From contig NZ_AZUQ01000001.1 of the NCBI RefSeq assembly GCF_000527155.1, positions 1,733,615-1,797,614 on the forward strand: a stretch of DNA of 64,000 nt. Reading direction: 5' to 3'. Both the position numbers and the translations under genes were made by a program. This DNA comes from Haloglycomyces albus DSM 45210. Lineage in GTDB: Bacteria > Actinomycetota > Actinomycetes > Mycobacteriales > Micromonosporaceae. The notes below the pieces were generated by a model, which had not been told where the DNA came from, ran no database searches, and saw only the letters and a list, made by a program, of their open reading frames with translations. Positions 24,862-43,961 of the stretch are shown here, piece after piece; the stretch's first letter is position 1, and each line of letters opens with the position of its first letter.

Positions 24862-25551
24862 ATATAAGAAATCCTGTTCATGTGAAGTGCCGTCGGGAGT
24901 ACGTCGGCGGAACTTCTCGAGTCGGTTTTCTGCGAGGAATGCCGGATCTCGCTTCGCATTGGACGGGGTCTCCATCCCGTACGAAACGACGTTTCGGCAT
25001 ACCTTCGTATCGAAGAACATTGCTTCGATTTCCAGTTCCTACGAACGTACGTTTAATACGTGTGTCCACTCAATAGGGAATACCCTTGCATACGAACAGG
25101 TAGATGAATGGTTAACCAAAAGTATGGTTAGTAAAACTTAGAAATGAATATTATTGGAGCACAAGCGGTATAGTTGCTATCAATTGATATTGATAGATGT
25201 AGAGAAATAGCGAAAATTGTTGTCCACAATGAGGGAAACGTGCGCAGCCCGCAACTATTGAATTCGTGGGATCACTCCATTATTCGGTACTGAATCGATC
25301 GATCCCAGAGCGATGAAAACATCTCTAAAATAAATGAGCGTGCATATTTATGCTTAGAGGCTAAAGTAGCAAATCGACTGGTGGCACCGAGACATCTGCG
25401 TGCACCTCATCAACTCAACCACCAAACCATCTGCACCCAAGTACTGGTCAACGGTGAACCCCTAGCACTGAATGTGCAATGTGGCGGTAGAGGTGGCTAT
25501 TTCCCAAAAGAGCTCAACCATCAAGCTATCCCCAGGGGCGAGCCGACTGGC
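24862..25551. other. AT-rich intergenic region upstream of the protease
   Basis: No convincing gene is seen. The stretch 25060-25380 is clearly AT-rich and probably holds the protease promoter. From about 25540 the composition changes to GC-rich at the start of the RNA element. Confidence 0.4.
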
Positions 25552-25725
25552 GAGCCGCCAACAACGCGCGAAGCGCGTGTGTAGCGGCGGTAGAGCTGGA
25601 GGGGAGCTCAGGTTGTTCCAGGTGCTGCAGATGTGCGCGAGGAGGATTCTCGCGACCTTCAGGTCGTGAGAATCCCCCGCAGCGTAAATATGGAGTGCCT
25701 GGGGCAAGCTGAGCGGTCACCTCAC
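25552..25725 (+). ncRNA. candidate structured RNA element, copy A
   Basis: The element can fold into several helices. A hairpin domain is closed by GCCGC 25554-25558 with GCGGC 25584-25588 and has an inner 6-bp stem at 25564-25578. A short hairpin pairs GAGCT 25593-25597 with AGCTC 25605-25609. A 10-bp closing stem joins 25613-25622 to 25698-25707. Inside it TGCG 25634-25637 pairs with CGCA 25678-25681. A 14-bp hairpin joins 25644-25657 to 25662-25675 with a UUCA loop. Positions 25585-25646 match 43859-43798 (minus) at 52 of 62 positions without gaps, and the closing stem shows compensatory changes. The strand is inferred from fold conservation. I recognise no Rfam family; alternatives are a mobile-element end or a guide-type RNA relic. 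Confidence 0.6.
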
Positions 25726-27791
25726 CACCCACTTACTAGGAGTTGGGTGTCTTGCAACGCTTCGACGAGGTTTTGAATTTCCCACCCTAGTACGTTGCGG
25801 CGCCCTGCGCTTGCGGCGGAACCGTTCTGAAGCTTGGTCATGAGGGTTTCGGCTGCGGCTTCCAAGTCGACCGCCGTTCCCGGTGGTGCTTCGCCTCGGG
25901 CGCGTGCCGACAGGCGCATGTAGGTGGTGTCGACGGCGTTCGCGAAGTCGTCTATCTCCGGTATGTCGGTGGTTTCTTTACGCCCGATGTCGGCGTTGAT
26001 GGCGATCAACGCGCGTGCCGCTCGGTTCAGGGCGTCTTCGACACCGGTGACGTCGCTGGATTCCGGGGTGCCGCCGACCGGTTCGGCGGCGGCTTTGTCC
26101 ACGGCGGTGCGTACGGCTTGGCGATTGACGCGGACGTTGTCGATGACCGTCCGCATGAGGTTGGCGTCGTAGTCGACCGGATGCGCCTGGCGGTCCATGA
26201 CGATGCGGGCGTAGTCGCGGTAGGAGTCGATCAGGTCGGCGAGGAGGTCGCCGAGGCGGCGAGTCTGCCAGGTGGGCGTCAAGAGGTACAGCAGCAGTGC
26301 CAGTCCCGCGCCGATCAGGGTCGCCGATACACGTTCGAGGCCGGAGGTGATGACGTCGGTGCCGGCCAGGTCGATTTGGAATACCGTATAGGCGGCTACG
26401 GCGGCGTTCCACAACATGGGGGAGACGGGTCGGGCGAGGTAGGCGACGGTCGCCCAGAGCAGTACCATCCCGAGAATCACCGGGTACAGGTGCGGGATGA
26501 ACAGGGAGATCACACTGGCGAGGAGGACTCCGGCGGCGGTTCCCAACGCACGCACGGTTCCTCGCGTCAAGGTTCCGGCGTAGTCGGCCTGCAGGACGAT
26601 CCACGCGGTCAGGGGAATCCAGTAGCCGTGGGTTCCGGGCCAAAAATACAGGGCGATCAATTGTGCCGAGGCCACCACGATTCCGTGACGCCACGCGTGG
26701 TGCGCGGTGGGGGAGGACAGGCGCAGGTTGGTGCGGAGTCGACCCATTCCTTCGCGCATCTGGCTGCGGGCGTGCCGGACGGTGCCGGTGGAGATGATGT
26801 CGTCGTTACCCGAGATGATCCGTGCGGCGTAGCCGTCGGCGTCGTGCAGAACGCGTAGTAGTCCTCCGATTTCCACCGGGATGGTTCCGGTGGCGGTGGC
26901 TACCGGGTGGCGGCCGAGTTGTTGCAGTAGTTCATCCCAGTTGGGGGAGACGGCTTTGCGGGCGGTAATGGATTCGGCATAGGTGCGCAGGACCTGTGAG
27001 GCGAGCAGTAGGGCGTCGGAGTAGAGATCGGCGGCGTCGGGATCGGTGTTGCTGAGTCGGGATCGAGCCGCTGAGACGCGGTTGATCGCACCGACGATCT
27101 CATAGATCTGGTTGCGCGCGGCGGTGATGGATTCGGGGAGGCGGCGGCGGTGTTCCAGTTGATCGGTTGCCGTCAGGACTTCTTCACGGGTCAATGGGGC
27201 TTCGGGGTTCTCGGCCAGTTCGGCGGCTTCGTCTGCGAGGGCTTTCCATGCTCCCGCCAGGTAGGCGCGGTCGGTGGTCCAGCGTTGGTACGGCGGCATG
27301 AACGTCAGTAGAGCTTGGATTCCGCATCCGCCCGCGACCGCCAGTGCGGCGATGAACGGCGTGGTGTCGGCGGTGATCTGTTCGGAGAGGAAGAAGACGA
27401 TGCCGACGGTGATCGAGGTGGCTCCGATATTGGGGCCGATGGTGCCGACGTAGGTCATGACGACGGCGAATGCCGCCGACGCCAAGAGAAGAGGTAGGGG
27501 ATGGGTGATCGCGCCCAGAACGACCACGACGCTCCCGGCGATCCCGATCAGGAGCGGGGTGGACGCCTGGGAACGAGCGGTCGGGGTGACGAGGCCGACT
27601 CCGCCGAGCCAGGCCCCGATCATCAGAGCGATCGACCAGCTCGGATTTCCCAACGCGGCGGTGATACCCATTGCGACGGCCATGCCGACGGCGCATTTGA
27701 CGGCCAAATAGGGGGTGACTTCATTGGGAGTCCACGATTTGATGTTGTCGCGAATTTGCGCGCCCGACCGTTGAATCCCCGCTTTGACCAC
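25722..27791 (-). CDS. FUSC family integral membrane protein
   Basis: The 689-residue protein has two blocks of membrane helices separated by a soluble helical region. The first block (about 25-165) starts with VKCAVGMAVAMGITAALG and the second (about 370-510) contains YFWPGTHGYWIPLTAWIVLQ, the FUSC hallmark. The soluble C-terminal part has about 180 residues. Relatives are aromatic-acid exporters (AaeB) or proteins of unknown transport role. The RNA element on the opposite strand runs up to its stop codon. Confidence 0.85.
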   Translation of the reverse strand: MVKAGIQRSGAQIRDNIKSWTPNEVTPYLAVKCAVGMAVAMGITAALGNPSWSIALMIGAWLGGVGLVTPTARSQASTPLLIGIAGSVVVVLGAITHPLPLLLASAAFAVVMTYVGTIGPNIGATSITVGIVFFLSEQITADTTPFIAALAVAGGCGIQALLTFMPPYQRWTTDRAYLAGAWKALADEAAELAENPEAPLTREEVLTATDQLEHRRRLPESITAARNQIYEIVGAINRVSAARSRLSNTDPDAADLYSDALLLASQVLRTYAESITARKAVSPNWDELLQQLGRHPVATATGTIPVEIGGLLRVLHDADGYAARIISGNDDIISTGTVRHARSQMREGMGRLRTNLRLSSPTAHHAWRHGIVVASAQLIALYFWPGTHGYWIPLTAWIVLQADYAGTLTRGTVRALGTAAGVLLASVISLFIPHLYPVILGMVLLWATVAYLARPVSPMLWNAAVAAYTVFQIDLAGTDVITSGLERVSATLIGAGLALLLYLLTPTWQTRRLGDLLADLIDSYRDYARIVMDRQAHPVDYDANLMRTVIDNVRVNRQAVRTAVDKAAAEPVGGTPESSDVTGVEDALNRAARALIAINADIGRKETTDIPEIDDFANAVDTTYMRLSARARGEAPPGTAVDLEAAAETLMTKLQNGSAASAGRRNVLGWEIQNLVEALQDTQLLVSGW

Positions 27792-43636: not shown

Positions 43637-43708
43637 GGCGGTGTAGCTCAGTGGTAGAGCGTACGACTCATAATCGTTGTGTCGCCGGTTCGATCCCGGC
43701 CACCGCTA
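43637..43708 (+). tRNA. tRNA-Met (CAT), elongator type
   Basis: Acceptor GGCGGTG pairs with CACCGCT (G-U at the first pair). The D-stem is GCTC/GAGC, the anticodon loop CTCATAA (anticodon CAT), and the T-arm GCCGG-TTCGATC-CCGGC. The outermost anticodon-stem pair is T-T. It lacks initiator features. CCA is not encoded. Confidence 0.94.
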
Positions 43709-43719
43709 CTTTTGATTGG

Positions 43720-43882
43720 TGGGTGACCGTTCCTCCTGTTTCAGGCACGTCATCTTCACGTTGCGGGGGCCTCTTACGGCCGAAAGGCCGCAGCGAGTCC
43801 TCCTCACGCAAATCTGAAGCACCTGAAACAGCCTGAACTTCTTTCCAGCTCTATCGCCGCGTCGCACGAGAGCGCTCGCGGC
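43720..43882 (-). ncRNA. candidate structured RNA element, copy B
   Basis: This is the second copy of the element at 25552-25725, on the minus strand and starting 12-27 bases from the 3' end of tRNA-Met. The closing stem joins 43822-43831 to 43736-43745 (CTGTTTCAGG with CCTGAAACAG). Copy A has TTGTTCCAGG with CCTGGGGCAA; two positions change on both sides at once and two change between G-U and A-U. The short hairpin (43847-43851 with 43835-43839) keeps pairing through a C-to-T change that gives a G-U pair. The inner GC hairpin and the TTGCG/CGCAA pair are kept with other bases. An open reading frame runs through it, but the fold explains conservation beyond the stop present in copy A. Confidence 0.6.
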
Positions 43883-43961
43883 TCGTTCTTCGCGAACCCG
43901 ACGGTGCACGTCATTCGAAGATCTTGTTTGGTAGCGCCGTACGTCGGTACCGGCGTGTTGC

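Follow-up and report, generated by a model that had tools for sequence, protein, structure and literature searches.

The question raised by this locus is what kind of element keeps an elaborate fold while its sequence changes. In the initial annotation of the window (the whole 64,000-bp stretch analysed, contig 1733615-1797614 of the 3.54-Mb single-contig genome of Haloglycomyces albus DSM 45210), a structured element was described in two copies, herein copy A and copy B, with compensatory base changes. Re-alignment reproduced both the coordinates and the match, 25585-25646 of copy A being identical at 52 of 62 positions to the reverse complement of 43798-43859 of copy B. The proposed base pairs were all confirmed as well: the closing stem of copy A, TTGTTCCAGG (25613-25622) with CCTGGGGCAA (25698-25707), is paired at 10 of 10 positions, and that of copy B, CTGTTTCAGG/CCTGAAACAG, differs from it by two double changes and two G-T/A-T switches. 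Both copies fold better on the strand picked in that annotation than on the opposite strand, and on the picked strand the fold stability against dinucleotide shuffles gave z values of -8.9 for copy A and -5.3 for copy B. The features of the two copies, with the evidence for each, are listed below.

25456..25485, + strand: H1 (S type), older and more decayed, of the next unit leftwards from copy A (sequence)
25486..25549, + strand: decayed array unit ("arm") immediately left of copy A (nhmmer, 42 bits at -97..-35 from HP; BLAST match at contig 1759087-1759134)
25554..25588, + strand: H1 of copy A, a short hairpin with stem GCCGC/GCGGC and inner stem ACGCGC/GCGCGT (sequence)
25589..25721, + strand: HP module of copy A (folds, about 55 genome homologues, pair counts), made up of the GGTAG junction, the mini-hairpin GAGCT/AGCTC, arms at about 25606-25657 and about 25662-25716, the loop 25658-25661 and the right edge GCGGTCACC
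25722..25724, - strand: stop codon (TGA) of the FUSC-family gene 25722-27791, adjoining copy A at its right edge (ORF list, gene call, Pfam FUSC_2 E 5.6e-18)
43637..43709, + strand: tRNA-Met, its 3' end toward the right edge of copy B, about 12 bp away (ARAGORN, Rfam RF00005)
43722..43856, - strand: HP module of copy B, with the junction variant GATAG (match to covariance model R1 at contig 1777336-1777474, 136 bits)
43856..43884, - strand: H1 of copy B, GCCGC/GCGGC (sequence); a single element with no adjoining array unit detected

Copy A has lost one base relative to its own class, which makes the tip more regular. At positions 1-50 of the window lies what is probably the decayed left end of another array, the HP of which is located just outside the window (contig 1733350-1733489).

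The element proved to be far more abundant than the two copies first described. A BLAST search with copy A yielded about 43 loci in this genome at 71-100% identity, and the covariance model R1, built from 28 sequences, detected about 55 hairpin loci on both strands. When the search with R1 was extended to other actinobacteria, as the initial annotation had proposed, no copy was detected in 24 relatives or, under stricter filters, in 200 genomes of the family; the closest GuaA to that of this genome, among the genomes scanned, was from Glycomyces salinus (82%). Plasmids, phages and viral contigs gave no match to the repeat. The comparison with Rfam, likewise proposed and including the HEARO/omega-RNA and retron models, gave no relevant match to the repeat at gathering or permissive thresholds (E up to 10) and none above the gathering threshold, the matches being two tRNAs, chance-level matches, and a SAM riboswitch in a flanking locus only. 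This riboswitch (RF00162, 75 bits; L184:3942-4058, - strand) lies near one class III copy. Literature searches found no description of the repeat family. Whole-genome statements herein rest on genome searches, the directly read sequence consisting of stretches around the copies, about 8% of the genome. By automatic sorting, which is doubtful for two weak loci, the HP sequences fell into three classes, I (about 31-33 copies), II (9) and III plus other (at least 12), with copy B standing alone. In one locus (L024, contig 1097971-1098031) a complete class I element is directly followed, on its right, by the right-hand half of a class II hairpin, representing a nested or replaced copy. We consider it probable that the locus belongs to a lineage-specific repeat family of the BOX/BIME/REP kind, non-autonomous and non-coding, whose members, about 55 in number, are modular, palindromic and interspersed.

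The basic element, about 170-180 bp in length, is composed from left to right of H1, the GGTAG junction, HP and the end GCGGTCACC(CACCAACCAA), HP being an imperfect hairpin of about 130 nt. The H1 stem covaries over 55 copies (GCCGC/GCGGC, GCTTC/GAAGC, GCAAC/GTTGC, GTCGC/GCGAC). Pairing is retained in 98.6% of cells over the 45 consensus pairs, 25 of which show double changes, and none of the shuffled or slid registers came near the observed pairing; these pair counts are not independent events, since the structure was derived from the same sequences and the copies are related. In a strand-symmetric test (folding without G-U), we counted 263 G-T against 50 A-C mismatch cells, with the excess of G-T in 53 of the 55 copies, which share ancestry and thus do not represent 55 independent observations. 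On average the + strand folds about 17 kcal/mol more stably than the other, and only copies 3212239 (L186) and 3407962 (L032) depart from this. In 53 of 55 copies the wobble pairs are confined to a single strand; one strand by itself, as RNA or as single-stranded DNA, has therefore mattered, and on this point the initial annotation is borne out.

Its reading of the base changes as selection on structure holds in part. A strand-specific fold has indeed been kept, but some of the double changes can be put down to template switching. The two exceptional copies, 3212239 and 3407962, carry an inverted tip together with the most nearly perfect arms, and inversion of the spacer with homogenisation of the arms has been described as a mark of template switching (PMC8604942), a process by which compensatory changes can also arise in RNA stems (PMC8794818). 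These two copies are candidate replication template-switch events, and part of the covariation bears the same signature. This is a caution for the identification of structure by covariation, as not only selection but also template switching may underlie the compensatory changes seen here.

The copy number, the near-identity of distant copies and the lineage restriction, all in the one genome of the genus, suggest that the repeats have been mobile. The related proposal of a non-autonomous single-stranded DNA transposon of the GTAG-REP/RAYT (Y1 HUH) type agrees with the strand-specific imperfect hairpin, with the presence of GTAG at the HP junction in 46 of 55 copies and with the report that GTAG REP termini are a source of stop codons for neighbouring ORFs (PMC3733652). 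This proposal is nevertheless unlikely: no Y1 transposase (Y1_Tnp, PF01797) was found in the genome by a search in which the control genomes were positive, GTAG is missing in 9 copies, and HP at about 130 nt is far above the 20-40 bp of REPs. A transposon using single-stranded DNA of the lagging strand might show a replication-strand bias, but the bias observed was not significant (33 of 55, p 0.18, with the origin assumed at coordinate 0).

Other candidates for a putative mobiliser were searched for in the same genome. No reverse transcriptase was found, and neither was any autonomous element or parent IS sharing the repeat ends. Seven tyrosine recombinases were matched, and the two of them that were scanned both fell far below the cut-off for integron integrases. 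A target-site duplication was not recognised, with no excess of k-mer sharing among nine elements with little or no array, for which the left boundary is uncertain. Five genes of the TnpB family (PF07282) are present, at contig 1508173, 3052863 and 3168531 (L200-L202), 225373 (L203) and 883866, whereas a Y1 TnpA is absent from the genome. Three of them are 94-96% identical over about 1.35 kb but not outside it, and therefore look like compact TnpB-only elements; the four loci that were compared with the repeat have no sequence in common with it. A link of the TnpB or tyrosine recombinase loci to the arrays was rejected, as none was found, and a 16-17-bp match near one recombinase (L194) lies within a coding gene and was taken as chance. 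Copies 1944406 (L031) and 1098038 (L024) share a 554-bp left flank at 83% identity, while their HP classes and right flanks differ. This flank was considered as an autonomous element and discarded, as no convincing protein domain was found in it, the best match, to DDE_Tnp_1, being below cut-off, and the stretches read around the repeat copies contained no third copy.

With the single-strand preference established, a functional structured RNA transcribed from the + strand, either trans-acting or antisense to the abutting gene, has to be weighed. The strong covariation, the conserved tandem U-G/G-U pairs (GTGC...GTGC) and the restriction of wobble pairs to one strand, which in most copies is antisense to the abutting gene, all point in this direction. 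Such an RNA family is distinctly unlikely, however, in view of about 55 dispersed and lineage-restricted copies, many of them near-identical and set in mosaic flanks, and of the 16 of 54 copies that face a gene start; in addition, no promoter-like site above chance was detected near copy A, and template switching accounts for some of the double changes. The suggestion of a trans-acting RNA or a new small-RNA class is thus not supported.

The position of the repeats relative to genes was analysed with a simple codon-usage gene caller. The element edges lie between genes, and in 29 of 55 copies, including copy A, the right edge falls within -12..+7 bp of the stop of the facing gene, whereas random intergenic insertion would be expected to place 1.9 copies there (P about 1e-27, the gene map of the window serving as the background). 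As many as 12 of the 29 abutting genes stop at a TGA inside the element's own GGTCACC (GGTGACC on the strand of the gene). Right edges were also found just upstream of a ribosome-binding site, and in the 16 copies facing a gene start some lie about 30-40 bp upstream of it; none of the left edges is as close to a gene as the right edges. The statement that no adjacent gene explains the element is therefore incorrect, as copy A runs up to the TGA of the FUSC-family gene and copy B ends at a distance of about 12 bp from the 3' end of tRNA-Met. The FUSC orthologue of Glycomyces salinus ends ...ADWHRR, three residues past the ...SGW of the window gene, and no such hairpin is present downstream of it.

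This location at stop codons or a tRNA 3' end would fit hairpins that serve the abutting gene as a transcription terminator or mRNA 3' stabiliser, with position and pairing both selected for that role, and effects of BOX and REP repeats on co-transcribed genes have been reported or proposed (PMC3049150, PMC3733652). Such a role is quite improbable, since, of the two strands, the one read together with the abutting gene folds less well, on average by about 17 kcal/mol, and carries A-C mismatches in the places of the G-T pairs of the other, and no T-run terminator was found near copy A. As the favoured strand is antisense to most of the abutting genes, the fold is not kept for the mRNA of those genes; any host function would be conjectural.

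Most copies form the right end of an array of about 95-105-bp units, each consisting of H1 and an "arm" (GGTAGAGCTG...AACT) in the same orientation as HP. An array contains from 0 to about 5 units and HP is always terminal; 11 copies, including copy B, have no detectable unit beside H1. The mean unit score drops with distance from HP, from 39.6 to 28.3, 18.9, 9.1 and 4.1 bits per 100 bp (n = 44, 28, 9, 2 and 1, respectively). The unit types are few and recurrent, with particular arm types recurring ahead of particular H1 types, and adjacent units are mostly of unlike types, which argues against local tandem duplication. HPs as much as 99.3% identical adjoin different H1 and arm types, and for HP pairs of at least 93% identity the mean flank identity drops from 64% beside HP to about 48%, the background level, within 200 bp. 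The finding of near-identical HPs beside different H1s and arms indicates that HP has been exchanged or inserted separately from the left-hand sequence, and the modules thus appear to move or be converted independently of each other. Right of copy 1488193 (L025), the right end AGAGCGGTCACCCACCCACCAA is present in several tandem repeats, followed by a CCAA run.

The decay polarity, the diversity of units within arrays, the terminal HP and the common junction sequence together raise the idea that the arrays grow in a polarised manner through site-specific recombination at GGTAGAGCTG beside HP, a topology like that of integrons or CRISPR, with non-coding modules. This is hardly probable, given that no integron integrase rose above the cut-off among the two recombinases scanned and that the recurrent unit types are unlike spacers; moreover, gene conversion outward from HP would yield a similar gradient, and the gradient can be fitted alike by such conversion or by sequential addition beside HP. 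A bolder version, a new polarised DNA array with non-coding modules joined serially in one orientation at the GGTAG junction beside the terminal strand-specific hairpin, by an enzyme unrelated to integron integrases, RAYTs and Cas1, so that the arrays would be age-ordered insertion records, is very improbable. A relic of a retron or of HEARO/omega-RNA, which resemble the repeat as single-strand structured elements with a long hairpin, is not supported, as there is no reverse transcriptase in the genome, no relevant Rfam match, and nothing in common with the four TnpB loci compared.

Under the preferred reading of an interspersed repeat family, the element would spread and be renewed as DNA, one strand folding into a hairpin that is recognised or copied. 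The copying agent could be an enzyme in trans, so far elusive or lost, or else ectopic recombination between copies, joining at the GGTAG junction beside HP. Complementarity of the arms would be upheld in part by selection, acting on the strand that tolerates wobble, and in part by template switching in replication. Within the mosaic array the better-preserved units adjoin HP, and the older ones are found farther to the left. A sizeable repeat family, confined to its lineage as far as searched, is hereby added to an actinobacterial group. Its arrays are layered by age, with the freshest units on one side, its edges time and again provide or touch a stop codon, and its strand-specific hairpin has no evident mobiliser.

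Among known systems, the family resembles MITEs in being short, non-coding, multi-copy and strongly base-paired, but would differ from them in that no terminal inverted repeats besides the hairpin and no target-site duplication were recognised, among elements with an uncertain left boundary, and no parent IS with the same ends was found. With REP/BIME and GTAG REP sequences it shares extragenic palindromes, strand-polar imperfect hairpins and stop-codon-supplying termini (PMC3733652, PMC2817692), with GTAG at the module start in 46 of 55 copies, but its HP is about 130 nt and not 20-40, its units stand in one orientation and do not alternate, and no RAYT is encoded in the genome; membership in the GTAG-REP/RAYT group was accordingly rejected on palindrome length and Y1 transposase, just as that among retrons was on reverse transcriptase and Rfam and that among omega-RNAs on the TnpB link. 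BOX of Streptococcus pneumoniae has the organisation boxA-(boxB)n-boxC (PMC3049150). By build, and not by sequence comparison, the present family is like BOX in being composite, modular, structured and dispersed, with a variable number of internal units and no transposase of its own (PMC3049150), and many dispersed intergenic copies, distinct modules in variable number and a stable secondary structure, as in BOX and BIME, were all observed. It departs from BOX in the single long terminal hairpin, the one-sided decay of units, the right edge set tightly on stop codons and the actinobacterial host. The nearest in kind are BOX and BIME/REP, which are modular, structured, intergenic and without an enzyme of their own, and what is unusual against all of these is the combination of a long strand-polar terminal hairpin with one-sided decay and one-sided abutment.
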